This document shows, piece by piece, positions 10,686 through 23,542 of a DNA stretch of 30,325 bases (position 1 is the stretch's first letter; every line of letters begins with the position of its first letter). The notes under the pieces were generated by a model. That model worked only from the letters and a program-made list of their open reading frames with translations. It was not told the origin of the DNA and made no database searches. A program made the translations under genes and the position numbers. The stretch covers positions 1-30,325 of the IMG/VR virus record IMGVR_UViG_3300042364_000409; one strand, given 5' to 3'. The stretch comes from a virus.

Positions 10686-13205
10686 TCATGCGGCTTCCTT
10701 TGCGGGTTGTTCGCGGTCCAGCTCTTCCAAGTCAAACAAGCTGGGCATGCTGACCTGCTTTTCGGCAGACTTGAGGTAGTGGACTTGATCCATGAAATAG
10801 CCCGGGTTCAGCTCGCTCCCGCCACCACGGCGGCCCTTGATGATTGCCCTATAGGGCACGGTTCCGAGTCCGCAGAATGGGTCATAGACCAGTTCTCCCG
10901 GGTTGCTGTATCGCTCAATCAGCCGGTCCACGATGTCAAACTGCAGCGGGCAAACATGCTTCTCGACGGCCCGGCGCGACTGCTCGCTATTGAGCGTCAG
11001 CATGCGCGTAACGTCGTGCCAAACGTCCGGATGATGCGATCCTGGCGCAAGGCTCATAAACGTTGAAGGCAACGCGCCGCGCGCCTCCAACTCTTCACCG
11101 ATGCGGACGTGGAATTCGTAGTCATAGACCGACTGCAGGCTGTACTGCGTGAACAGGCTGGCCAGCTTGTCAGGTCCAAGACCGGCCAGATCCTCGGCGG
11201 TAATCTGGCGGTTTCCGCTGCTGCGCCAGAATGCGTGCGCGTCCACTTGCCAGTGTGCGCGGGTATATTCCGCTTTTGACTTCACAACCGGCACGTCAGC
11301 ATATCCGCGCGAGCGATCCGTCTGCGGCTTGCGGAACAGGACGACATACTCCGGTGAGCCTACGCCCATCTTCGTGCCGTCCTTGCACTGCTCAGACCAG
11401 CCGAGGCGATAGGTCTGGTTATTCTCACGAACCACATCGGTAACCACGGTGATTAGCCCCATGTAGTCGAAACCATGCTTTCGACCGTGCATGATGGCCT
11501 CGCAGTGGAACGGGCTGACAGTCGGAGCACCGGCCCCTGTGACGTTGCCAAACAAGATGCGGTCTTTGACGTGGCATGCGTAGACGCGGCCAGGCTTCAA
11601 GATGCGCAGCAGTTCGGGCGTCAGGTGATCCATCTGCTCCCAGAAATGGTCGTTGTTTTCCGTGTGTCCGAAGTCGTTATAGCTCGGGCTGTATTCGTAG
11701 TGATTCGCGAACGGGATTGACGTCACGATCAAGTCGACGTGGTTCTCAGGCTTGATCTTGGCCTCTTCCACGCAATCATTGTTTGCCACGCTGAACAGTT
11801 CGCCAGTGACTTCGATCCGCTCCACGCCGATGGAGCGCGCTAGCGTTTCCTGCATGGCCAACTGATTCAAACCGTACCGCTTGATGATGTCGCTCATGTT
11901 CTTAACCAGTTCCTCATGTTGCGCCCATTTGGCTTGAAGGGTTCGCAAAACCTCGCGCTCGGCTTCGCTGTAGATGATGTCGATTCGCACCGGGTGCGGC
12001 TGCTGGAATCTCTGAACGCGGTGTATCGCTTGTATGAAATCGTTGAACTTGAACCCGATGCCCGCAAAGATTTCCCGATGGCAGTGCCGCTGAAAATTAC
12101 AGCCGCTGCCAGCGATTACCGGCTTTGTCGAAAGCACGCGGAATTTCCCATCGCCAAAGTCAACGATGCGCCGTTCGCGCTCTTCCAGGTCTTGACTGCC
12201 CCAAACGCTGACGGCTTCAGGAATGGCCGCCTGCAGAGCATGCCGCTCAGTTTCTAGGTCGTGCCAGATAACAAAGTGATCTTCCGGCGCTTCGGCGACT
12301 AGCTGCGCAGCCACGGCGACTCGGCCCGGCATGCTGTCGCGCTTCTCACCGGCCGCCGCGCTAAGGCCCATGGCCGGATCTGTAAACATCAGGGCTTGAC
12401 CGTCGCGGTCAGTACCTGCCCGGCTGTAATCGCTCGGCACCTCGTGGTAACGAACGTCCAGCGGCGGCAGGTCATATCCATCGTCGCTATAGCCAAGGTC
12501 GCTCGGCTTTTGAACGAACACGGCCCACGATGACACCCAAAGCCAGAACTCTTGTTCCTTGTGCGGGTACAGCGTCAGGTTTCCGGCTTTCTCGCTATCG
12601 CGCTGGAAAAACCGCGTCAAGGCCTGGCCGGTATCCATGACGCCGAGAAATCCGGCGTAGTGGATCAACTCTTTTAACCGATTCGGGCTCGGAGTCGCTG
12701 TGTTGACCAGCTTAAACCGCACACCCTCAAACAGTGGCAAAAACTCTTGATAAGTTTTGGAGCCAAACGACCGGAGCACGCTGGCTTCGTCTAGGCTGAC
12801 CGCGGTGAACAGCGCCGGGTCTAGCTTACCGTCGCGGATCGTCTCGTAATTCGTGACGTAAAACCCACCGAAATCGCCCATCTCTGAAGCGCTGCGGATG
12901 AACTTCAAATCCATGCCCAGCATGGCAGCATCTCTAATCAATTCTTGACGCACACCAAGCGGGCACACGATCAACCCGTTGCCGCCGACTTGAATGATGA
13001 TCTGGCGCAGCCACTCGCACTGCATGACAGACTTGCCAAGGCCGAAGCTAGCGAAGATCGCACGGTTGCCCCCGAGCACGGCCCATCGCACAATGTCGCG
13101 CTGGTGCGGGTACAGACACGGATGCGCTGCTTCGGGCTTGATGTCAAAGCCTTTGAAGCTCGCCATCTTGATTTTGTCGCGCAGAAACGCGGCGTAGTCG
13201 CTCAC
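10686..13205 (-). CDS. SNF2-type helicase fused to DNA methyltransferase, 839 aa
   Basis: GTG 13205 overlaps the previous stop (GTGA) and is chosen over an upstream start. Residues 1-430 are a superfamily 2 helicase: Q-like LYPHQRDIV, Walker A GLGKS (55-59), DEAS box (139-142), TATP (169-172) and motif VI-like IHRVQRFQQ (394-402). Residues 460-839 are a beta-class N4-cytosine/N6-adenine methyltransferase: motif IV TSIPF (495-499) comes before motif I DPFCGLGT (775-782). Motif IV normally reads (S/D)PP(Y/F); here the first Pro is Ile, a variant I know from phage enzymes. It probably modifies phage DNA against restriction; the helicase may allow translocation. Confidence 0.85.
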   Translation of the reverse strand: MSDYAAFLRDKIKMASFKGFDIKPEAAHPCLYPHQRDIVRWAVLGGNRAIFASFGLGKSVMQCEWLRQIIIQVGGNGLIVCPLGVRQELIRDAAMLGMDLKFIRSASEMGDFGGFYVTNYETIRDGKLDPALFTAVSLDEASVLRSFGSKTYQEFLPLFEGVRFKLVNTATPSPNRLKELIHYAGFLGVMDTGQALTRFFQRDSEKAGNLTLYPHKEQEFWLWVSSWAVFVQKPSDLGYSDDGYDLPPLDVRYHEVPSDYSRAGTDRDGQALMFTDPAMGLSAAAGEKRDSMPGRVAVAAQLVAEAPEDHFVIWHDLETERHALQAAIPEAVSVWGSQDLEERERRIVDFGDGKFRVLSTKPVIAGSGCNFQRHCHREIFAGIGFKFNDFIQAIHRVQRFQQPHPVRIDIIYSEAEREVLRTLQAKWAQHEELVKNMSDIIKRYGLNQLAMQETLARSIGVERIEVTGELFSVANNDCVEEAKIKPENHVDLIVTSIPFANHYEYSPSYNDFGHTENNDHFWEQMDHLTPELLRILKPGRVYACHVKDRILFGNVTGAGAPTVSPFHCEAIMHGRKHGFDYMGLITVVTDVVRENNQTYRLGWSEQCKDGTKMGVGSPEYVVLFRKPQTDRSRGYADVPVVKSKAEYTRAHWQVDAHAFWRSSGNRQITAEDLAGLGPDKLASLFTQYSLQSVYDYEFHVRIGEELEARGALPSTFMSLAPGSHHPDVWHDVTRMLTLNSEQSRRAVEKHVCPLQFDIVDRLIERYSNPGELVYDPFCGLGTVPYRAIIKGRRGGGSELNPGYFMDQVHYLKSAEKQVSMPSLFDLEELDREQPAKEAA

Positions 13206-13366
13206 TTCGTCTCCTTCGGCTTCATGCAGTTCCCGCACTTGTACGGCGTGCGGCCTCGAAAAACGCCCGTCCGGTGCCGGTGGCCGCAAAGCCACAGCCG
13301 GCGGGTGTCCATCCCCACGCCGCGCCACTGCAGCGTGCTCGGATCGCGCTCAATCGGGTGCAGCAT
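13202..13366 (-). CDS. small zinc-ribbon-like protein, 54 aa
   Basis: ATG 13366, overlapping the stop of the winged-helix gene; stop overlaps the GTG of the helicase-methyltransferase gene. The product is MLHPIERDPSTLQWRGVGMD, continuing with WLCGHRHRTGVFRGRTPYKC and CGNCMKPKETK. The C-x-H-x-H and C-x2-C pairs could bind one zinc. It may be a partner or leader protein for the helicase-methyltransferase because of coupled translation. Family not recognised. Confidence 0.65.
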   Translation of the reverse strand: MLHPIERDPSTLQWRGVGMDTRRLWLCGHRHRTGVFRGRTPYKCGNCMKPKETK

Positions 13367-16199: not shown

Positions 16200-16382
16200 A
16201 TGAAGTCAGGCCAAGTACCAAAAGGCGACGTTCGGCTGACGCTGAACGTCCGAGAGGAACTGCACCAGAAACTCAAAATCGCCAGCGCCATGACGCGCAC
16301 GACGATGGGGCAACTGGTTGAGCAGTTGATCGCTGAGAAGTTGAACGAGATGCTACGTGCTGGCATCAGACCGCTGCCATAG
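16200..16382 (+). CDS. ribbon-helix-helix protein, Arc-like, 60 aa
   Basis: ATG 16200 three bases after the SSB-like stop. The strand DVRLTLNVREEL and helices HQKLKIASAMTRTTMGQLVE, QLIAEKLNEM form the ribbon-helix-helix fold of Arc/MetJ-type repressors. Strand residues alternate polar and hydrophobic as needed for DNA contact in a dimer. Likely an early regulator of this operon or of the cassettes. It ends TAG two bases before a GTG start. Confidence 0.75.
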   Translation: MKSGQVPKGDVRLTLNVREELHQKLKIASAMTRTTMGQLVEQLIAEKLNEMLRAGIRPLP

Positions 16383-16983: not shown

Positions 16984-16990
16984 TGCTGGC

Positions 16991-17033
16991 TAGGGTTTCC
17001 ACCTATGGCAATGGTGAGATGTGCGGATGATGA
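16991..17033 (+). promoter_or_regulatory. TAGGGTTT-type element directly before the first attC
   Basis: TAGGGTTTCCACCTATGGC (16991-17009), 18 bases, then TGATGA (17028-17033), two bases before R'' of the first attC. Weak -10. By place it could serve as a Pc-like promoter reading into the array. Confidence 0.45.
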
Positions 17034-17034
17034 T

Positions 17035-17086
17035 GCCTAACGATTGAGGAAAGCCGCCGAAGGTCTGCTGGAACGAAGTGTTAGCC
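17035..17086 (+). repeat. attC site 1, 52 bp
   Basis: R'' GCCTAAC 17035-17041 and R' GTTAGCC 17080-17086. Inner arms AAAGCC / weak. The R'' and R' do not match each other fully, as expected between different cassettes. Same length and core (GCCGCCGAAGGTC) as site 7. Confidence 0.85.
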
Positions 17087-17186
17087 CGCCCCACCCCAAG
17101 CGCGCAGATGTAACAGTGCAAATAGTGCTTGCGTGAGTGCTCACGATAGACTAGTATTCAGTCATCGCAACACGCAACCCGGAGCA
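17083..17186 (+). promoter_or_regulatory. cassette 1 promoter with palindrome and shared leader
   Basis: TTGCGT (17129-17134), 17-base spacer, TAGTAT (17152-17157). The spacer and -35 hold CGTGAG-TG-CTCACG (17132-17145), an operator-like inverted repeat. The leader CATCGCAACACGCAACCCGG follows, with GGAG before ATG 17193. From 17081 to 17145 the sequence matches cassette 6 at 63 of 65 bases. Confidence 0.7.
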
Positions 17187-17192
17187 AGCAAC

Positions 17193-17408
17193 ATGGACCT
17201 GATCTACACCCCGCGCACAGTGACTGTGCAAGCCACGCGCCTGTGGCGCACGGATGGCGGCGTTGGGCAAACGCTGGTTGACGATGCGGGCAACGTTGTT
17301 GGCACGATGGCCGATGTGTGGCGCGGCAAGACCGCCGCTCCGGTGGGCCGCATCTTCTGCGGCGGCGGCGGCCGCTACCCGACCTACTGGCTCAAGACGG
17401 AGGCCTGA
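17193..17408 (+). CDS. cassette 1 gene a, 71 aa
   Basis: ATG 17193, ten bases after GGAG; an earlier GTG-frame start would read through the promoter. The product is MDLIYTPRTVTVQATRLWRT and continues with a beta-rich, Gly-rich body (GRIFCGGGGRYPTYWLKTEA). No recognised family. It is first of five genes in cassette 1, which together form an operon with its own promoter. Small beta-rich proteins with this style occur in phage early regions. Confidence 0.65.
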   Translation: MDLIYTPRTVTVQATRLWRTDGGVGQTLVDDAGNVVGTMADVWRGKTAAPVGRIFCGGGGRYPTYWLKTEA

Positions 17409-17410
17409 CC

Positions 17411-17590
17411 ATGTACCGCATTGTTGAAACATACCAAGGCCACCTGCTTTATACGCAGCCCAGGGCATACGAAACGCTGCAACAAGCTGCAGAAAGCCTG
17501 CGCGCACAAGTGGCAGACGGTCAAGTACACCGCAGCCTAGCAATCAAGTGCGGCCACAACTACGTGCCGCGCAAGGAGTGGCAGCAATGA
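17411..17590 (+). CDS. cassette 1 gene b, 59 aa
   Basis: ATG 17411, two bases after the previous stop. Product begins MYRIVETYQGHLLYTQPRAY then ETLQQAAESLRAQVADGQVH: two beta strands, one helix and a basic end. The alpha/beta order resembles many tiny phage proteins, but the family is not identified. It overlaps the next start by four bases (ATGA). Confidence 0.65.
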   Translation: MYRIVETYQGHLLYTQPRAYETLQQAAESLRAQVADGQVHRSLAIKCGHNYVPRKEWQQ

Positions 17591-17781
17591 AAGTGCTGCG
17601 CGTTCGGATCGGTGAGTTCTGGTGCGAAGCGCTTGCGGAAGATGGTGAGCGCGTGCTGGTGCGCGACCCGATTCACTACTGCCTGCCGATAGACCGCAGG
17701 CCGCGCAGGCCGCCGAAGATTTGGGTTTACCTGCATCGGTGCAAAGAAGTAACTCATGGGCAAAGGAGCAAATCATGGTGA
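17587..17781 (+). CDS. cassette 1 gene c, 64 aa
   Basis: ATG 17587 overlapping the upstream stop. Begins MKVLRVRIGEFWCEALAEDG and has a very basic centre (PIDRRPRRPPKIWVYLHRCK). Two Cys residues. Role unknown; the basic segment could bind nucleic acid. The stop overlaps the next start region by seven bases. Confidence 0.6.
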   Translation: MKVLRVRIGEFWCEALAEDGERVLVRDPIHYCLPIDRRPRRPPKIWVYLHRCKEVTHGQRSKSW

Positions 17782-17993
17782 AGAAAGAAGACCTTGTCGC
17801 GCGGCTTGAAAAAGCAGATCAAGACGTGCGCCAAGCGTGGGGCACACGCGCTGGCAATTTGTACGGAGAAGCCGCCGCCAGTCTGAGGCGCTGGCAATGG
17901 TTGAAGGAAGACGCAACTTCGGCGCAGTGGGAGCGAGCCAGCCGCGCGCTTGACGTTGAAAAGGAAATTGACGCAATGATGCGTGGTTGCTAA
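17775..17993 (+). CDS. cassette 1 gene d, 72 aa
   Basis: ATG 17775 with AAGGAG seven bases upstream. All-helical: MVKKEDLVARLEKADQDVRQ then AAASLRRWQWLKEDATSAQW. No known motif. Its stop TAA overlaps the start of the next gene (TAATG). Expected to be cytoplasmic. Confidence 0.65.
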   Translation: MVKKEDLVARLEKADQDVRQAWGTRAGNLYGEAAASLRRWQWLKEDATSAQWERASRALDVEKEIDAMMRGC

Positions 17994-18166
17994 TGGCTTC
18001 AGCAAAGACCGCAGCCCAGCGGCAAGCCGAACGCAAAGCCCGCGAGCTTGCCGCCGGCCGAGTGCAGTGGAAGCGCTGGGTGCACCCCGACGATGTGCCA
18101 GCGCTGACGGAGTACGCCGACAAGCTGGCAAGGAAGAGAGCCCGTGCCGAACAGAAGGCGGGCTAA
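17993..18166 (+). CDS. cassette 1 gene e, 57 aa, near-copy of 20251 gene
   Basis: ATG 17993. Product begins MASAKTAAQRQAERKARELA and continues AGRVQWKRWVHPDDVPALTE, then a basic helical tail. The 'KRW-VHP-x-DVPAL-x-x-Y-x-x-KLA' centre is seen in small phage proteins, likely DNA-binding. It is identical to the cassette 6 product at 54 of 57 residues. Its stop TAA is part of the R'' box of attC 2. Confidence 0.75.
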   Translation: MASAKTAAQRQAERKARELAAGRVQWKRWVHPDDVPALTEYADKLARKRARAEQKAG

Positions 18167-18259
18167 CGATAGTTTGAGCCGCCAAGGAGGCGCAGATGAA
18201 ACATGAAGACGCACAGGTGCCGCCCGCCGACGCGGGTCGGCTCGAAACGCCAGTTAGGC
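18161..18259 (+). repeat. attC site 2, 99 bp, with embedded RBS and ATG
   Basis: R'' GGCTAAC 18161-18167, R' GTTAGGC 18253-18259. L'' TTTGAGCCG against L' CGGCTCGAAA gives a perfect stem with one extra base. The terminal part holds AAGGAGG (18184-18190) and ATG 18196. Confidence 0.92.
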
Positions 18260-18582
18260 CATGCGCGTGGCTGCGTGAGCAACGCGGCGAGTACGAAGGG
18301 CCAGCCACTTTGGCGCCGCTGATGATTCTTGGGCACAGCAAGGTGCGGCCTCATGCAAGCAACCACGGGGCGACATATGAGCCGCTGTACGATCAGGCCG
18401 CGCTAGACGCCGCGCTTGCCCTTTGGCCGCGAGACTGCCGCTTGTGCGCGCACTACCGCGATGGATTGACGCATGCCGCGCACTGCGTGAGCGTTCTGCG
18501 CTGCGAGGACAGCAGCGCTTACAGGGCCACGCAGCCGGTGCAGTTTTGGGAGAAGCGGCCCGCAGAACAGGCGCCGTTTTAG
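18196..18582 (+). CDS. cassette 2 gene, 128 aa, start inside attC 2
   Basis: ATG 18196 has a perfect AAGGAGG five bases upstream, both inside the attC. The first 20 residues (MKHEDAQVPPADAGRLETPV) are encoded by attC. No other in-frame start precedes residue 40. The rest contains a block of Trp, Cys and His (LWPRDCRLCAHYRDGLTHAA then HCVSVLRCE), which might bind zinc. The stop TAG is two bases before R'' of attC 3. Function unknown. Confidence 0.65.
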   Translation: MKHEDAQVPPADAGRLETPVRPCAWLREQRGEYEGPATLAPLMILGHSKVRPHASNHGATYEPLYDQAALDAALALWPRDCRLCAHYRDGLTHAAHCVSVLRCEDSSAYRATQPVQFWEKRPAEQAPF

Positions 18583-18583
18583 G

Positions 18584-18679
18584 GCCTAACGTAGAAGTTA
18601 AGCCGATGACCCTAGCAACGGAGGAACGATGACCACAGAAGCAACGCCGGGGGCACTCGGCTCGAACGACCAGTTAGGC
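18584..18679 (+). repeat. attC site 3, 96 bp, with embedded RBS and ATG
   Basis: R'' GCCTAAC 18584-18590, R' GTTAGGC 18673-18679. L'' GTTAAGCCGA and L' TCGGCTCGAAC pair with one extra base. GGAGG (18620-18624) and ATG 18629 lie in the terminal part. Confidence 0.9.
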
Positions 18680-18964
18680 GCGTGGGTGCCGGTAGCTGAC
18701 CGACTACCAGAGCCGGGCGCTGCCGTGCTGGTGGCGTGTGGCAAGTTTGTGATGCGCGCAGTGCATGTGCCGCACATGGCATTTTGCGAAGCTACGCACG
18801 GCTACTTTGAGCCAGAAGGCGCTGCGTACTACGACGAGGGCACCGACAAGGCGTATTGGCCCGCAGGCTGGTACGAGTGGAATCAGCACGAAGAAACGCA
18901 TTGGGCGCTTGACGACGAGCCGACGCACTGGATGCCCCTGCCGCCCGCGCCTGAGAGCGCCTAA
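18629..18964 (+). CDS. DUF551 protein of cassette 3, 111 aa, start inside attC 3
   Basis: The domain starts at WVPVADRLPEPGAAVLVACG and ends THWMPLPPAPESA, which I recognise as DUF551, a phage/enterobacterial family of unknown role that has these two ends. The centre has AYYDEGTDKAYWPAGWYEWN. The first 16 residues (MTTEATPGALGSNDQL) come from attC 3, so the domain begins almost exactly at the cassette edge. No credible start occurs after R'. The TAA stop lies within R'' of attC 4. Confidence 0.85.
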   Translation: MTTEATPGALGSNDQLGAWVPVADRLPEPGAAVLVACGKFVMRAVHVPHMAFCEATHGYFEPEGAAYYDEGTDKAYWPAGWYEWNQHEETHWALDDEPTHWMPLPPAPESA

Positions 18965-19045
18965 CGATAGTTTGAACGGCGGCGCATAGGTGCTGCCGAA
19001 GCGGGACGGTGCCGTTGCGCCGTCCGTTCGAAACGCCAGTTCGGC
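18959..19045 (+). repeat. attC site 4, 87 bp
   Basis: R'' GCCTAAC 18959-18965, R' GTTCGGC 19039-19045. L'' TTTGAACGG pairs with L' CCGTTCGAAA with one extra base. R' is a rare variant. Confidence 0.9.
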
Positions 19046-19079
19046 TTCACTGGTGAACGAAGCCACAACTAGGAACACC

Positions 19080-19274
19080 ATGAAGACCAAGATCGTGGAA
19101 CACATCGCCGGCAATGCGCGCCAGGCGCTGACCGAAGTAGAGAACGAGGTGATTCGCCTACGGGACAGCAACCAAGCTGTTTTCTCCAACACGCGAGAAG
19201 GCGCCGGCCTGGACCTGGCTGTGCTGCGCGAGAAGTTGAAGGCGGCGCAGGACTTGGTTGACCTGCTGCTGTGA
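19080..19274 (+). CDS. cassette 4 gene, 64 aa, helical
   Basis: ATG 19080 with AGGA upstream. A longer frame from GTG 18990 would start inside attC 4 but has no good ribosome site. The product begins MKTKIVEHIAGNARQALTEV and is helical to the end (LREKLKAAQDLVDLLL), a likely coiled coil. No family recognised. The TGA stop is one base before R'' GCCGAAC. Confidence 0.7.
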   Translation: MKTKIVEHIAGNARQALTEVENEVIRLRDSNQAVFSNTREGAGLDLAVLREKLKAAQDLVDLLL

Positions 19275-19275
19275 A

Positions 19276-19338
19276 GCCGAACGCTTGAGTTAAGGCCGCG
19301 TGCCGTAGGCACGTCGCGCCTTGAACGAAGTGTTAGGC
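19276..19338 (+). repeat. attC site 5, 63 bp
   Basis: R'' GCCGAAC 19276-19282, matching the TTCGGC start of cassette 4; R' GTTAGGC 19332-19338. L'' GTTAAGGC pairs with L' GCCTTGAAC with one extra base. Confidence 0.9.
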
Positions 19339-19358
19339 CATGTAACCGGAGCGAGACG

Positions 19359-19646
19359 ATGGACCGAAAGACAGAGGCGCAACTGCGGCAAGAACTGGCC
19401 GATGTGTGGGCGCTGCTAGAGGCGGAGCGGTCTGGGCGAGCAGCCGCCGTGGCCGCAGAGCGCGAGCGTTGCAAGGTGTTGGCACGCTGGATGATTGAAG
19501 CGACCGCGCTGCTGGCCGAGTACGAGCAAACGGACGATTCAGAAGACGGCGGCGCGACGGCGAGGGATTTGCGCTGGCGAGGCGAGCGATTGGTGCAGGC
19601 CGTGTTGGACCCAGGGCCTAACGTTCGAGGAAACCTGCCACCCTAG
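19359..19646 (+). CDS. cassette 5 gene, coiled-coil protein, 95 aa
   Basis: ATG 19359, 20 bases after R'. The product is MDRKTEAQLRQELADVWALL then EAERSGRAAAVAAERERCKV, a long charged coiled coil. The reading frame passes through R'' of attC 6 and ends at TAG 19644 inside that site, so the last ten residues (PGPNVRGNLPP type) depend on attC sequence. No family recognised. Confidence 0.65.
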   Translation: MDRKTEAQLRQELADVWALLEAERSGRAAAVAAERERCKVLARWMIEATALLAEYEQTDDSEDGGATARDLRWRGERLVQAVLDPGPNVRGNLPP

Positions 19647-19687
19647 GCCGCAGGCCGGAGGGGGTCAGGTTGTGCGAGCAGTTAGCC
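19616..19687 (+). repeat. attC site 6, 72 bp
   Basis: R'' GCCTAAC 19616-19622, R' GTTAGCC 19681-19687. Inner arms AACCTG / CAGGTT. Imperfect outer arms. The stop of the cassette 5 gene lies inside. Confidence 0.85.
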
Positions 19688-19788
19688 CGCCCCACCCGAA
19701 GCGCGCAGATGTAACAGTGCAAATAGCGCTTGCGTGAGTGCTCACGCTGCGCTAGAGTACATACATCGCAACACACAACCCGGAGCAA
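19684..19788 (+). promoter_or_regulatory. cassette 6 promoter with palindrome and shared leader
   Basis: TTGCGT (19730-19735), 17-base spacer, TAGAGT (19753-19758). Palindrome GCGTGAG-TG-CTCACGC at 19732-19747 overlaps -35 and spacer. The leader CATCGCAACACACAACCCGG is shared with cassettes 1 and 12 and with the core gene at 7726. Confidence 0.7.
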
Positions 19789-19791
19789 GCA

Positions 19792-19962
19792 ATGTTCAAG
19801 ATCATCATCACCCAGCGCGGCGGCGATTTCGCCAAGATCGCGGAGTTTTCAGCCAAGAGCCGCGAGGCTTGTTTTTCGTGGGCCGAGCGCAACTACGGTG
19901 GCGACAAGTTTAACTGGTCGGTGAACTGGCTTGAAACCGGGACTCCCGGGGGGCGCGTTTGA
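19792..19962 (+). CDS. cassette 6 gene a, 56 aa
   Basis: ATG 19792, nine bases after GGAG. Product starts MFKIIITQRGGDFAKIAEFS and continues AKSREACFSWAERNYGGDKF. A compact alpha/beta protein, unlike the first gene of cassette 1 despite having the same promoter and leader. The stop TGA overlaps a TTG start of the next frame. No family recognised. Confidence 0.65.
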   Translation: MFKIIITQRGGDFAKIAEFSAKSREACFSWAERNYGGDKFNWSVNWLETGTPGGRV

Positions 19963-20060
19963 AGGCGCGAGCTGACGGGTGGCTGCTTGCTGCAGCCGCC
20001 ATTTACCTTGCAAACATGATTGGGTGGTTGGTGTACTTCTGCGCAAAAGGATTGGCATGA
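19959..20060 (+). CDS. cassette 6 gene b, 33-aa single-pass membrane peptide
   Basis: TTG 19959 overlaps the previous stop (TTGA). The sequence is KARADGWLLAAAAIYLANMI then GWLVYFCAKGLA: a basic N-terminus and one membrane helix. Stop overlaps the next ATG (ATGA). Both junctions look like coupled translation, which supports a real gene in spite of the small size. Confidence 0.5.
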   Translation: MKARADGWLLAAAAIYLANMIGWLVYFCAKGLA

Positions 20061-20254
20061 ACACAAGTTGGCGCATTGTGATGGTTCAAGAAACAGGCGA
20101 GCGCACGCAATACGGGCGCGGCTGTTTTCAGACAAGCGAGGCGGCTTGCGATTGGATAAACCAGGAGCGGCTTGAAAGCCAGCACCCAGAATGCCGGTTC
20201 TTTGTAGAGCCTGACATTTTGGCGCCTTGGGCTTCCAACACGTTCTGGCAATGA
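20057..20254 (+). CDS. cassette 6 gene c, 65 aa
   Basis: ATG 20057. Product begins MNTSWRIVMVQETGERTQYG and continues with CFQTSEAACDWINQERLESQ. Strand-strand-helix-strand order, two to three Cys. Looks like a small alpha/beta phage protein; not recognised. Stop overlaps the next gene start by four bases. Confidence 0.65.
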   Translation: MNTSWRIVMVQETGERTQYGRGCFQTSEAACDWINQERLESQHPECRFFVEPDILAPWASNTFWQ

Positions 20255-20424
20255 GCGCCGCTAAAACGGCAGCCCAGCGCCAAGCCGACCGCAAAGCCCG
20301 CGAGCTTGCCGCAGGCCGTGTGCAGTGGAAGCGCTGGGTACACCCTGACGACGTGCCAGCACTGACGGAGTACGCCGACAAGCTGGCTAGGAAGAGAGCC
20401 CGTGCCGAACAGAAGGCGGGCTAA
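20251..20424 (+). CDS. cassette 6 gene d, 57 aa, near-copy of 17993 gene
   Basis: ATG 20251. MSAAKTAAQRQADRKARELA, then the same sequence as the cassette 1 gene; only three residues differ. Basic, helix-rich, probably DNA-binding. The TAA stop is in R'' GGCTAAC of attC 7, the same arrangement as in cassette 1, so the gene and its attC form one conserved 3' module. Confidence 0.75.
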   Translation: MSAAKTAAQRQADRKARELAAGRVQWKRWVHPDDVPALTEYADKLARKRARAEQKAG

Positions 20425-20470
20425 CGTTCGAGGCAAGCCGCCGAAGGTCGGCTTGGGCGAGTAGTTAGGC
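20419..20470 (+). repeat. attC site 7, 52 bp
   Basis: R'' GGCTAAC 20419-20425, R' GTTAGGC 20464-20470. Inner arms CAAGCC / GGCTTG. Same length as site 1. Confidence 0.88.
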
Positions 20471-20499
20471 GTCTCTATCCGAAGCGAAAGGAAGCAACG

Positions 20500-20703
20500 A
20501 TGAAACTTGTAATCGATCACTCTGAAACGAAGCGCACCATTGATGGCGCGTTCGGCATTTGCGGAAGCCGCCGCGACTTGTTGGCACTTGTCGCGCAACT
20601 TCAGGCGCGGCTGGACGACGAGTCGTGGAGCTACGGCTGGGTTACGGTACACCCGACGCTCCAGCAGAAGGCAAACACACCGCCCAAGGACTGGGACGCC
20701 TAA
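20500..20703 (+). CDS. cassette 7 gene, 67 aa
   Basis: ATG 20500 with AAGGA upstream. Product starts MKLVIDHSETKRTIDGAFGI then CGSRRDLLALVAQLQARLDD and SWSYGWVTVHPT. A strand-helix-strand protein of a style common in phages; family not identified. The TAA stop is inside R'' of attC 8. One gene per cassette with a short leader. Confidence 0.7.
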   Translation: MKLVIDHSETKRTIDGAFGICGSRRDLLALVAQLQARLDDESWSYGWVTVHPTLQQKANTPPKDWDA

Positions 20704-20760
20704 CGTGGGAGCTAAGCTGACCGCGCGCCAGCGCGGGTCAGCTTGAGCGAGTGGTTCGGC
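20698..20760 (+). repeat. attC site 8, 63 bp
   Basis: R'' GCCTAAC 20698-20704, R' GTTCGGC 20754-20760. GCTAAGCTGACC pairs with GGTCAGCTTGAGC: perfect apart from one extra base. Core almost the same as site 9. Confidence 0.93.
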
Positions 20761-20815
20761 TGCGGCCGGAGCGCGTGAATTCAACAACGGGCGGAGTGCC
20801 CAGGAAAGTCAAGAA

Positions 20816-20965
20816 ATGGACTACAACGATTTGGAGCGCAAGGTTCTGCTCTTCTTCAGCGACACCTCGCGTTCGCCCGGCGAGACGAAGCGCGACCTGC
20901 TGGCGCTGGCCGAGAAGTGCCAAGACCTTGCGGAAACCATAGACGCGGAGGAGGCTGACGACTGA
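20816..20965 (+). CDS. cassette 8 gene, 49 aa
   Basis: ATG 20816 with AGGAA upstream. Product starts MDYNDLERKVLLFFSDTSRS and continues with an acidic helix (CQDLAETIDAEEADD). Small acidic protein; acidity could suit a DNA mimic, but this is speculation. The TGA stop is one base before R'' GCCGAAC of attC 9. Unusually small cassette (269 bp). Confidence 0.65.
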   Translation: MDYNDLERKVLLFFSDTSRSPGETKRDLLALAEKCQDLAETIDAEEADD

Positions 20966-20966
20966 A

Positions 20967-21029
20967 GCCGAACGTGGGAGCTAAGCTGACCGCGCGCCAG
21001 CGCGGGTCGGCTTGAGCGACAGGTTAGGC
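20967..21029 (+). repeat. attC site 9, 63 bp
   Basis: R'' GCCGAAC 20967-20973, R' GTTAGGC 21023-21029. Shares over 40 consecutive core bases with site 8 except one. L''/L' differ by one extra base. Confidence 0.93.
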
Positions 21030-21056
21030 AGCAGTGGTGACGAAGCGAAAGGAACT

Positions 21057-21227
21057 ATGAGCACCTACACCGTACAGATACAGCACGACGACGACGGCGA
21101 ACTAGACGTGAGCATCACGGACGCAGGCAGCAGCGAGCAGGACCGCGCCGCGATTGAGTGGGCGCTGCGCGAAGCCGCGCGCATGGTGGAAGAAGGCTTG
21201 CCGATTGAACGGGGCATGTTTTCGTGA
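21057..21227 (+). CDS. cassette 9 gene a, 56 aa
   Basis: ATG 21057 with AAAGGA upstream. MSTYTVQIQHDDDGELDVSI then an acidic helix (QDRAAIEWALREAARMVEEG). Small acidic alpha/beta protein. Overlaps the next gene by four bases (GTGA). No family recognised. Confidence 0.7.
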   Translation: MSTYTVQIQHDDDGELDVSITDAGSSEQDRAAIEWALREAARMVEEGLPIERGMFS

Positions 21228-21439
21228 AGCGACAGATGCTGTTAAGCGTGCGCGACAAGAGCGGCGCTGAGTGGGGCTTTGAGGTGCGCGCGGACCCGGC
21301 GCACTTGCCCGAGTGGCGCGCTGCTGGGCTTGAGGTGTACGAGCTTGCGGCCAGCGTGCCGGCCTGGGCTGCTTCGCTGGGCCTTGGGCGGCTTTGGGCC
21401 GCAATTCAAGGCGCATGGCAGTGGCTGCGGGTTTTCTGA
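21224..21439 (+). CDS. cassette 9 gene b, 71 aa
   Basis: GTG 21224 overlapping the upstream stop. MKRQMLLSVRDKSGAEWGFE, then LPEWRAAGLEVYELAASVPA and the end GLGRLWAAIQGAWQWLRVF. This 'VPAW-x-x-x-x-GL-x-R-x-W' end is shared with small phage proteins I have seen in early regions; the role is unknown. The amphipathic tail may touch a membrane. The TGA stop is one base before R'' of attC 10. Confidence 0.7.
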   Translation: MKRQMLLSVRDKSGAEWGFEVRADPAHLPEWRAAGLEVYELAASVPAWAASLGLGRLWAAIQGAWQWLRVF

Positions 21440-21440
21440 T

Positions 21441-21540
21441 GCCTAACGTTCGAGCAAAGCTGCCAAGGAGGCGCTGATGAGTAGCCGAGACGAGACGATG
21501 CCACCCGCCGACGCGGGTCAGCTTGAGCGAGGGGTTGGGC
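21441..21540 (+). repeat. attC site 10, 100 bp, with embedded RBS and ATG
   Basis: R'' GCCTAAC 21441-21447, R' GTTGGGC 21534-21540. Arms AAGCTG / CAGCTT. AAGGAGG (21465-21471) and ATG 21477 in the terminal part, homologous to site 2. Confidence 0.9.
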
Positions 21541-21965
21541 GGCTGGAGCCGGAGCGCGATGACATTGGCATGCTGAAGGCCGCAGCCGACGCGCTGGGCC
21601 TGCAATACGAGTGGCACCACGGCTGCGGCGATGCGTTGCACCTGACAGCATCCGACGCGACAGCGATTTACTGGAACCCGCTGCGCAGCGATGCCGACGC
21701 GCTTGCGCTGGCGGTCCGCATGGAGATGGACGTATTTGTGCGCGCCGGCCGATGGAGCGAGGCTGTGCGCCCGATGGGGCCGGCATGCAAGGAGCCGCAT
21801 GCAGGCGACCCGCTGGCTGCGACACGGCGGGCCATCGTGCGCGCCGCTGTAGAGGTTGCCACGCATGCGCTGCCGGAAGACGACTGGCGCGCAAAGCCTA
21901 ACCAGCCATTGCCGAACCGCCGCAAGACGCCCAACGCCAGGTTAAGCGGGAGACAACGGCCGTGA
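21477..21965 (+). CDS. cassette 10 gene, 162 aa, start inside attC 10
   Basis: ATG 21477 has AAGGAGG five bases upstream. The first 21 residues (MSSRDETMPPADAGQLERGV) are attC-encoded. An internal ATG at 21570 (MLKAAADALGLQYEWHHGCG) has no ribosome site and marks where the recognisable part begins. The motif AIYWNPLRSDADALALAVRM resembles the 'WNP-x-x-x-x-DA-x-x-L' segment of short phage proteins found beside DUF551 genes. The frame runs 30 bases beyond R'' of attC 11. Confidence 0.7.
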   Translation: MSSRDETMPPADAGQLERGVGRLEPERDDIGMLKAAADALGLQYEWHHGCGDALHLTASDATAIYWNPLRSDADALALAVRMEMDVFVRAGRWSEAVRPMGPACKEPHAGDPLAATRRAIVRAAVEVATHALPEDDWRAKPNQPLPNRRKTPNARLSGRQRP

Positions 21966-22029
21966 CGCTGCCGACGAAGCGCACAGGTGCGGATAGCCGT
22001 TGGCTCTCCGCTTGAACCGACAGTTAGGC
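21929..22029 (+). repeat. attC site 11, 101 bp
   Basis: R'' GCCCAAC 21929-21935, matching the TTGGGC start of cassette 10; R' GTTAGGC 22023-22029. L'' GGTTAAGCGG and L' CCGCTTGAACC pair with one extra base. Confidence 0.9.
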
Positions 22030-22053
22030 GTCACTGGCGCCGGAAAGGAAATG

Positions 22054-22401
22054 ATGAGCGAAGCCACTACTACCTGGGAGAAGTTGCCGGCCATTGAAGG
22101 CAAGCACGGCGGCTGTTTGAACTGCGGCCCGCGCCCCAGCTACTTCCCGGCTGACGGGATCATTGCGGTGGGCTTTGGCTATGCCGCGCTGCACCGCGAC
22201 GGCGAGCCGGTTTACACCGAGCCGAACGAAGCCGAGAACGACGACGCCTACATGACGGGCGCGCAGGCCGAGGCGATGGCCGCCGCAGACCCTGACCACG
22301 ACTGGCGCATCGTTCTGGAGGCGCCGCTGTCGTCGCGCACGTACCAGCGGCACGGCTCCGACCAGTGGGCGCTGGTGGAGCAGGGCATGGGCTTTGCGTG
22401 A
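22054..22401 (+). CDS. cassette 11 gene, phage protein, 115 aa
   Basis: ATG 22054 is favoured over 22051 by its spacing from AAGGA. Product: MSEATTTWEKLPAIEGKHGG then CLNCGPRPSYFPADGIIAVG, FGYAALHRDGEPVYTEPN, and the end WALVEQGMGFA. The 'ADGIIAVGFG...YTGAQAE...DWRI...PLSSRTYQRHG...W-x-LVEQGMGFA' layout is shared with hypothetical phage proteins I recognise, without known role. TGA stop is one base before R'' of attC 12. Confidence 0.75.
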   Translation: MSEATTTWEKLPAIEGKHGGCLNCGPRPSYFPADGIIAVGFGYAALHRDGEPVYTEPNEAENDDAYMTGAQAEAMAAADPDHDWRIVLEAPLSSRTYQRHGSDQWALVEQGMGFA

Positions 22402-22402
22402 C

Positions 22403-22462
22403 GCCTAACGGGCCGGGTGAGCCGCCCGCCAGCGGCGGGTCGGCTCGACCCGGGTGTTAGGG
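22403..22462 (+). repeat. attC site 12, 60 bp
   Basis: R'' GCCTAAC 22403-22409, R' GTTAGGG 22456-22462. CCGGGTGAGCC and GGCTCGACCCGG pair fully with one extra base. Confidence 0.93.
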
Positions 22463-22508
22463 CGCTGGTGCCGTAGCGTGACCATGTTTGCGTGTTACAA
22501 AATAGTTG

Positions 22509-22565
22509 TTGACGCTGGCGGTTAACGTGCTACAGTAACCCCATCGCAACACGCAACCCGGAGCA
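22509..22565 (+). promoter_or_regulatory. cassette 12 promoter with shared leader
   Basis: TTGACG (22509-22514), 16-base spacer, TACAGT (22531-22536). Leader CATCGCAACACGCAACCCGG starts at 22542. A different -35 region from cassettes 1 and 6 but the same leader. Confidence 0.75.
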
Positions 22566-22571
22566 GACGAC

Positions 22572-22805
22572 ATGACCACCACCTACCGCGCCGCTTACGA
22601 AGGCAAGACCTACACCCGCAAGACCGACCGCACCTATACGCATGCTGTCGGCTGCACGCTGGGCGCTGCTCGCGGCGACCGCGAAGGCGAGGAAGGCATC
22701 GTGGCTTGGTGTGGCACCGCCGCGCTGGCTGCCAAGGCCGCCAAGAAGTACGCCGCCGCGCAGTGGGGCTTCAGCAAGGTGCAGATCGTGGAGGTGCAGC
22801 AATGA
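22572..22805 (+). CDS. cassette 12 gene a, 77 aa
   Basis: ATG 22572 after GGAG. MTTTYRAAYEGKTYTRKTDR, then TYTHAVGCTLGAARGDREGE and a basic helix (AALAAKAAKKYAAAQWGFSK). Looks like a small alpha/beta phage protein. Role unknown. Overlaps the next gene by four bases. Confidence 0.7.
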   Translation: MTTTYRAAYEGKTYTRKTDRTYTHAVGCTLGAARGDREGEEGIVAWCGTAALAAKAAKKYAAAQWGFSKVQIVEVQQ

Positions 22806-22996
22806 GGTTCTGGCTAATCGAAGACAAGGTCGGCTCAGTTGTCGGCTGCGAACTGACCCGGCGTGAAGCTCACGAAACCGCTGCAGCGTTCGGTGTCGCT
22901 ATCGAGGAGTTCATTGTCTCGCCGCTAGACGTGGATGTGACCGCCGACAACGTGCGGCGGTTGCTTGGCGGGCTGGGCGGGTACGCAAAGCCATGA
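22802..22996 (+). CDS. cassette 12 gene b, 64 aa
   Basis: ATG 22802 overlapping the previous stop. MRFWLIEDKVGSVVGCELTR then REAHETAAAFGVAIEEFIVS. Strand-helix-strand with an acidic face, reminiscent of small phage proteins with 'REA' before a helix. No family named. Overlaps the next gene by four bases. Confidence 0.65.
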   Translation: MRFWLIEDKVGSVVGCELTRREAHETAAAFGVAIEEFIVSPLDVDVTADNVRRLLGGLGGYAKP

Positions 22997-23178
22997 CCGC
23001 CGACAAGAGCAAAGGCGGACGCCCGCCCGCCCCGCCCGGCCTGCGCCGGGTAAACGTGCCGCTGCGCCTTCCCGAGTGGCTGGTGGAGTGGATGGCAGAG
23101 CAGGCCGAGACGCCTGCGGAGTTGATCGAAGCCGCACTGCTGAAGGCGCACAAGCTGCGCCCGCCGCGTGCGCCCTAA
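22993..23178 (+). CDS. cassette 12 gene c, ribbon-helix-helix-like, 61 aa
   Basis: ATG 22993. MTADKSKGGRPPAPPGLRRV, then NVPLRLPEWLVEWMAEQAET and a second helix PAELIEAALLKAHKL. Strand followed by two helices fits ribbon-helix-helix DNA-binding proteins (CopG/Arc type). The N-terminal arm is basic and flexible. The TAA stop is inside the terminal R'' half-site CCCTAAC. Confidence 0.7.
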   Translation: MTADKSKGGRPPAPPGLRRVNVPLRLPEWLVEWMAEQAETPAELIEAALLKAHKLRPPRAP

Positions 23179-23179
23179 C
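23173..23179 (+). repeat. terminal R'' half-site of the array
   Basis: CCCTAAC, preceded by G, is the reverse complement of the GTTAGGGC at the start of cassette 12. No R' box is found in the following 100 bases. Confidence 0.6.
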
Positions 23180-23209
23180 TGAGCTATCGCCAAACCTCGC
23201 AAGCTCTGC

Positions 23210-23542
23210 ATGTACCGCAAACCATCCCCAAAGCGCCAGGCCGCCCACGTACGCAAGCTCGAATCCTTGCGCCGTGGACGCGACCGAGCGAACGCGAACA
23301 AGCCCGCGCGGCTGTACCCGCCGACGCTGCCTGACTTGCGCCGCGTGGTGACGGTGACGGACTTCGACGGCCCGGAGCCGGTGACGCACACGCTTGAGAT
23401 GCGGCGGACGAAGCGCGTGGACGTGTACGAAGTGCTGGCCGATGGCAAGCCGTGGAAGGTCTGCGGCTGGACGACGGCGCTTGAGGGGTTGCGCAAGAGC
23501 TATCAGCGTGTTCTGTCGCCGCGTAGCGACTTTTGGGAGTGA
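23210..23542 (+). CDS. hypothetical phage protein, 110 aa
   Basis: ATG 23210, without a clear ribosome site; the start may differ. MYRKPSPKRQAAHVRKLESL gives a basic N-terminus, then a beta-rich domain (RVVTVTDFDGPEPVTHTLEM then VDVYEVLADGKPWKVCGWTT). The style is that of a phage protein of unknown role. It is the first gene after the array and does not appear to lie in a cassette. Confidence 0.65.
   Translation: MYRKPSPKRQAAHVRKLESLRRGRDRANANKPARLYPPTLPDLRRVVTVTDFDGPEPVTHTLEMRRTKRVDVYEVLADGKPWKVCGWTTALEGLRKSYQRVLSPRSDFWE

Follow-up and report, generated by a model that had tools for sequence, protein, structure and literature searches.

A probable integron-type cassette array with genes inverted relative to attC in a P22-like phage

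The IMG/VR virus record IMGVR_UViG_3300042364_000409, analyzed here over its whole length (30,325 bases; hereinafter, the window), encodes a P22-like podovirus gene set, namely the coat, scaffold, portal, large terminase, tail spike and DNA-transfer proteins, as well as an O-like replication protein and a helicase/methylase. Membership in the P22-like podoviruses is supported by matches to PF11651 (E 1.1e-83), PF16510 (E 2.3e-151) and PHROGs 648, 979 and 770. Between the backbone genes, at positions 17035-22462, lies an array of 12 attC-like sites of the integron type, with complementary R boxes and all in one direction, on the minus strand. Every cassette gene, in most cases preceded by a ribosome-binding site (RBS), is on the plus strand, so that the genes run opposite to their own attCs.

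The sites were scored with a covariance model, R2, that was trained solely on bacterial attCs in the correct orientation, derived from class 1 plasmid integrons and bacterial genomes. This model recovers all 12 sites on the minus strand, with scores from 58.9 to 9.8 bits and E values below 0.001 for ten. From left to right, the sites occupy 17035-17086 (30.3 bits; predicted cut after 17040), 18161-18259 (22.4 bits; cut after 18166), 18584-18679 (42.3 bits), 18959-19045 (weak, 15.7 bits, E 0.037; hairpin z -2.97), 19276-19338 (42.4 bits), 19616-19687 (41.1 bits), 20419-20470 (49.5 bits; cut after 20424), 20698-20760 (58.9 bits; cut after 20703), 20967-21029 (50.8 bits; cut after 20972), 21441-21540 (38.7 bits; cut after 21446), 21929-22029 (weak by the model, 9.8 bits, E 1.6; hairpin z -3.67; cut after 21934, confirmed by a precise junction in the phage contig G057, see below) and 22403-22462 (38.6 bits; hairpin z -6.1; cut after 22408). 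A plain search for R''/R' box pairs finds 13 in the region, whereas 200 dinucleotide-shuffled versions have 0.97 on average and never more than 4, and an independent weight matrix concurs on 11 of the 12 sites, with a single weak extra match at 16241. Folded as single-stranded DNA, nine of the 12 form better hairpins than shuffled sequences (z of -2 or lower). The array thus has the attributes of an attC array without an integrase (CALIN), that is, at least two clustered sites detected by an attC model, all on one strand. A search of Rfam gave no matches at the gathering thresholds, and a search of sequenced phages with a window attC site found none.

Another model, R1, which scored the plus strand higher, was dropped: it combined class 1 attCs placed the right way round with Burkholderiales sites placed backwards, an error that arose because the near-palindromic attCs align in both directions, and it preferred the plus strand for this reason. 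The fault surfaced through homology breakpoints located at the "wrong" end of the sites. The turned Burkholderiales attCs align nearly without gaps with the class 1 attCs (TCGTTCAAGCCGAC vs TCGCTCAAGCTGAC), and after turning, genes and attCs are mostly co-directional in the eight bacterial arrays examined.

The relative orientation of genes and attCs was assessed by scoring the gene strand between neighboring attCs by codon use. All 10 scorable segments of the window are opposite to the attC and none has the same direction; the close relatives yield 20 opposite segments, none in the same direction and 2 without a call; and the other IMG/VR viral contigs, among the matches listed, yield 225, none and 25, respectively. 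In bacterial loci, 112 segments run with the attC, 16 run opposite and 47 are without a call. The DNA pattern used to collect the loci is uninformative on gene direction, and the number of viral contigs with inverted arrays is a lower bound. As controls, the published array of phage TJE1 was scored as normally oriented, and wherever an integrase gene is present at the locus, be it bacterial or phage, the attCs are directed away from intI. The canonical bacterial cassette, in which the gene has the same direction as the attC and the attC lies at its 3' end, is accordingly not what the window contains, and the inversion of phage cassette genes against attC is systematic. The initial annotation of this DNA had proposed an integron-type array in a phage genome, with twelve attC-like sites in one direction and one to five genes per cassette, and had suggested a covariance model check that should give about 12 matches on one strand. 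The check gave exactly this outcome, on the minus strand and with two weak sites; the sites with their complementary R boxes and the cassette sizes hold, and the phage setting is supported by the P22-type coat, scaffold, portal, terminase and DNA-transfer proteins together with sparsely annotated small genes. The common direction also stands, but the strand had been missed: R2 and the codon-use scoring place the sites opposite to the plus-strand genes.

Because the attCs are on the minus strand, the left end of each site is where the crossover G^TTRRRY falls, reading GCCTAA^C. The first cassette, c1 (17041-18166), thus includes attC 1 and five genes with RBSs (17193-17408, 17411-17590, 17587-17781, 17775-17993 and 17993-18166), with a promoter-like leader at 17163; its last gene has 92-94% identical copies in the viral contigs L250 and L186. 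The c2 gene (18196-18582, also with an RBS) encodes a 128 aa protein for which the PHROG and Pfam searches gave no matches, the c3 gene (18629-18964) a 111 aa DUF551 (PF04448) protein whose stop codon TAA is that of the R' box of attC 4, the c4 gene (19080-19274) a 64 aa protein, and the c5 gene (19359-19646) a 95 aa protein with 55% identity over 55 aa to the DNA of G047, a contig that carries an IntI gene. They are followed by c6 (19622-20424; attC 6, genes 19792-19962, 20057-20254 and 20251-20424, leader at 19764), c7 (20425-20703; gene 20500-20703), the c8 gene (20816-20965, 49 aa), c9 (20973-21446; genes 21057-21227 and 21236-21439), c10 (21447-21934; gene from 21477, phrog_5086), c11 (21935-22408; gene 22054-22401, with a product 92% identical in L273) and c12 (22409-23178; genes 22572-22805, 22802-22996 and 22993-23178, leader at 22542). 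Two near-duplicate pairs link c1 and c6, one comprising their last genes (18002-18168 and 20260-20426, 93%), which stop exactly at the R' box with different attC bodies beyond, and the other their leader regions (17053-17191 and 19654-19792, 83%).

Annotation of the cassette proteins is sparse, consisting of the single DUF551 and a few PHROGs of unknown function. Relatives of several of these proteins occur in other viral arrays, and the bacterial integron loci compared contain none. For the c10 protein, 300 genomes from the order of a Rubrivivax genome gave only weak matches, at 29-53% identity and in seven of the genomes, with no attCs near them. Several other viral contigs carry relatives of the last c12 gene at 91-100%, and the end of this gene recurs at cassette ends in about eight contigs, with a different attC after each. 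In the set used for breakpoint analysis (356 attCs on 74 array-bearing contigs), 112 sites have an R' box whose TAA terminates the upstream gene, with the last base of this stop codon exactly at the cut, and 131 contain the start of an open reading frame; in the window, attC 2, attC 3 and attC 10 hold a good RBS and the start codon of the next gene (ATG at 18196, 18629 and 21477). The cassettes c1, c6 and c12 share a promoter-like sequence and a 24-nt leader that is also found upstream of a gene outside the array in G001-G003, three close relatives of the window.

In these close relatives, the same locus holds arrays with other cassettes. The left flank is conserved in G001, G002 and G003 up to the R' box and then diverges, and in G002 the backbone is 99% identical to the window over 5.6 kb, yet the array differs; the possibility raised in the initial annotation that the sites never differ in related phages is thereby dismissed. 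Among the 144 homology ends located within arrays of the breakpoint set, 59 lie no more than 12 nt from a cut in one or both partners (both in 33 cases), whereas the opposite end of the site has three (two in both partners); about 6% are expected per side. The clearest exchange is with G057 (IMGVR_UViG_3300042879_004103), a phage contig with another backbone that has in common with the window only the array, 384 bp of the right flank and weak protein similarity. As read from the aligned sequences, G057 contains complete copies of c7 (279/279 nt, 100%), c9 (474/474 nt, 99.8%), c10 (488/488 nt, 100%) and c12 (770/770 nt, 100%), each with a 0-nt offset from the predicted ends, so that these four cassettes appear to have moved as CALIN cassettes are expected to, namely as whole units delimited at G^TTRRRY, the R' crossover. 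Their order in G057 is c9-c10-c12-new-c7; therefore c11 is cleanly missing, its absence being precise to the unit ends, and c7 has shifted to the right boundary. The c10/c12 junction in G057 is a hybrid box, GCCCAA^CGGGCC.

The array is enclosed by two constant boundaries. The left one (16988-17041, minus strand), which is the 3' end of the array in the attC direction, was delimited by blastn and sequence comparison and marks the point, the R' box GCYTAAC, up to which the backbone is kept in G001, G002 and G003. The right boundary (23173-23215, minus strand) is attI-like: at the cut 23178/23179, the variable sequence ending in CCTAA gives way to the constant CTGAGCTATCGCCAAACC. This boundary and the adjoining gene follow different cassettes in G003, G004, G057, L202/L231 and L194, and in G057 further cassettes intervene between c12 and the boundary. 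Hence the behavior is that of attI in six array contexts, although the sequence is unconvincing when compared with bacterial attI. The boundary gene (23210-23542, plus strand) encodes a 110 aa protein with 80-97% identity in G003, G004 and G057. Among phages with this gene (51-97% identity), its place is invariably just behind the attI-like boundary, a position taken by intI in the phages that encode IntI; a link of this protein to recombination or regulation is possible. A 51% homologue of the boundary gene is found in a prophage of the bacterial genome G201 (L465, 13440-14849), next to two inverted attCs and a methyltransferase gene, on a contig that also carries tape measure, primase and tyrosine recombinase genes. 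This genome, which belongs to the order of a Rubrivivax genome, contains three IntI genes over the curated cut-off, so that cells of this kind have at least a source of IntI in trans.

A complete integron, with intI next to attI, is not observed in the window or in its relatives G001-G005; other array phages do have intI. Of 50 array-bearing viral contigs, three encode an IntI that passes the curated cut-off, and a protein search added further contigs. Two of the carriers, G023 and G059, belong to different phage types by their terminase and head or tail genes. The phage integrases (L406, 1489-2529; L404, 1-1035; L408, 15129-15865; and L450-L452) lie beside attI and inverted cassettes; in L450, the stretch examined has no attC. 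The attI cores of these phages (CGAATTGATG^TTAGGC and similar) resemble an attI from a Rubrivivax genome, and the layout of intI, attI and attC is normal, with the cassette genes directed towards intI. When six phage IntIs were placed in a tree with 13 bacterial and class 1 IntIs, a small sample, they grouped together in a single clade with support of 97/97. Several cassettes of the IntI phages encode DNA methyltransferases. The G059 array (L408, 7917-15056), in particular, includes at least four methyltransferase genes as separate cassettes (three N6_N4_Mtase and one MT-A70). Such cassettes would fit a role in protection from restriction.

Taken together, these comparisons make it very likely that the P22-like phage of the window carries a cassette array of the integron type, which is recombined by IntI supplied in trans and whose cassettes come from a phage-specific pool of inverted units. 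The sites, their orientation, the units, the exact exchange of these between phages and the recurrent boundary are all read from sequence, whereas we infer the identity of the enzyme, its supply in trans, the expression of the cassettes and a benefit to the phage. The mobile unit would extend from the left-end crossover GCCTAA^C through the whole attC and the gene(s) to the next crossover, so that the gene(s) would have attC on their 5' side, in some cases with their RBS and start codon inside it, and with the next R' box often providing the stop. The integron integrase would cut at G^TTRRRY, excise the units and reinsert them mainly beside the attI-like boundary at 23178/23179. With no intI found in the window lineage, the enzyme is probably supplied in trans, and that part of the proposal in the initial annotation, which named a host IntI as the likely enzyme, is retained; the host origin is not required because other array phages encode their own IntI, and the source may be either a host integron or a co-infecting phage. 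Since the genes run against attC, expression would be expected from phage promoters present on some cassettes and from read-through, instead of the integron Pc promoter. Beyond the window, the evidence leans towards a broader picture in which phages maintain an integron system of their own, with an IntI clade, a phage attI and a communal pool of inverted cassettes. Phages lacking intI would borrow the enzyme of the host or of a co-infecting phage, and small accessory genes, DNA methyltransferases among them, would pass between unrelated phages and be rearranged cassette by cassette.

Several observations weigh against this interpretation. Two of the sites are weak under R2 (18959-19045, E 0.037, and 21931-22027, E 1.6), and those at 17035, 18161 and 21441 fold no better than shuffled sequences as single-stranded DNA. 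The homology-end counts are partly non-independent, and the exchange is read from metagenome assemblies. The boundary at 23179 has no convincing match to bacterial attI, and intI is absent among the annotated genes of the window and, by search, from G001-G005; the window record and these relatives may all be fragments.

The absence of intI from the window lineage would also be expected if the cassettes were shuffled by homologous or microhomology recombination, through an annealing recombinase or template switching, with no integrase and with passive sites. The attC boxes are indeed short repeats within the array, and phages often encode annealing recombinases, although none was identified here. 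However, the 7-mers at the two ends of every site are equally conserved, yet homology ends accumulate on one side (59 vs 3 of 144), and complete units join with no offset at the very base expected for IntI; we regard this explanation as improbable. The sites could alternatively be kept as hairpins that regulate translation or the end of transcription, or as origin or packaging signals, the likeness to attC being a relic. The start codons inside some sites are in line with this possibility, as is the fact that the strand that folds into the hairpin is also the mRNA sense. A regulatory function gives no reason to expect whole units to be exchanged with single-base precision at the IntI cut, and the same arrays adjoin intI and attI in other phages, so that a purely regulatory origin of the pattern is quite unlikely; recombination and regulatory roles of the sites could nevertheless coexist.

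If the phage had passively taken over part of an integron from a host chromosome, as Vibrio anguillarum phages are reported to have done, this would account for the similarity between the window attCs and Burkholderiales chromosomal attCs, and phages are known to take up integron pieces (PMC9892861). This explanation was rejected, and is given very little credence, on account of the inversion of the genes relative to attC, unlike in bacterial cassettes, and the relatives of the cassette proteins, which occur in viral arrays and are absent from the bacterial integron loci compared; moreover, the leader shared by three cassettes also precedes a backbone gene in related phages, and the locus is conserved in the lineage whereas its content varies. 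Assembly chimaeras or misclassified bacterial contigs are the least credible source of the pattern, to be entertained only as a marginal prospect. All the viral contigs are metagenome assemblies, and short repeats may mislead assemblers; however, the c10/c12 junction and that between c12 and the next cassette have too few bases in common for repeats to have caused a false join, dozens of contigs show the pattern, as does the neighborhood of a prophage in a bacterial genome, and bacterial contamination would produce the normal gene orientation.

The attC type and the prophage that carries the homologue of the boundary gene indicate that the host of the window phage is likely an environmental Burkholderiales bacterium. 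Outside the array, the minus-strand gene at 10686-13328 encodes an 880 aa protein in which a helicase part is fused to an N6/N4 DNA methylase. Close relatives of this protein are present in many IMG/VR contigs, including isolate proviruses, and the match of sequenced phages to the window DNA is restricted to part of this gene.

Integrons are known as a bacterial device for gene capture, and in phages they had been represented by short arrays and captured pieces. If the interpretation of an IntI-recombined phage array is correct, turnover of the small-gene regions in many environmental phages would be site-specific and would involve base-exact units, and the points of gene entry and exit would be predictable. 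The inverted orientation provides a simple mark that tells phage cassettes from bacterial ones, and it raises the question of whether phage integrons dispense with a Pc promoter and have the starts and stops of their genes incorporated in the recombination sites. As far as the literature searched shows, four features appear to be new: the consistent inversion of the genes against attC, the apparent base-exact cassette exchange between phages with different backbones, the recurrent, putatively attI-like boundary in phages without intI, and the candidate phage IntI group, which accompanies arrays inverted in the same way. The literature searched, which covered few of the subscription papers and preprints, has no description of phage arrays with this inversion.

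The closest known systems are the phage CALINs, 17 of which were described by Qi et al. (2023), with examples in Tetrasphaera phage TJE1, Pseudoalteromonas phage PH101 and Polaribacter phage P12002L; five of the six phage attCs assayed recombined with IntI1 (PMC9892861). Phage attCs are thus known beyond the few computational surveys mentioned in the initial annotation, and the window array, given that phage attCs and their use by IntI1 were already known, is not a new kind of element. Like the window, these CALINs are attC arrays without intI, with attCs of a kind that recombine with attI1 by IntI1. The direction in TJE1 and PH101 is described as typical (PMC9892861), and the three attCs of TJE1 are co-directional with the genes, whereas the window has 12 sites with all genes inverted, and its arrays go beyond the phage CALINs in the exchange between phages and the recurrent attI-like boundary. 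The sedentary chromosomal integrons of Burkholderiales (Rubrivivax, Methyloversatilis and others) have nearly identical attC R and L boxes and spacers, and an attI of a Rubrivivax genome resembles the phage attI of the G047 type; they differ in that the genes run with attC in 112 of the 128 scorable bacterial segments, many attCs are 129 nt long and intI lies beside the array. Temperate phages with integrons (Vibrio anguillarum phages, Shewanella M16-3 and P1) similarly combine intI, attI and cassettes; these have been described as pieces of host or class 1 integrons (PMC9892861), whereas the phage IntIs analyzed here form a separate clade in a small sample and lie beside inverted cassettes. 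Finally, in the reverse integron of Treponema denticola (PMC4909258), which owes its definition to how intI is directed with respect to the cassettes, intI and the cassette genes are transcribed the same way, as in G047, G023, G059 and L452; in the phage arrays, intI, attI and attC retain the normal geometry and it is the genes that are turned, a comparison that for Treponema covers the direction of intI and the cassettes.

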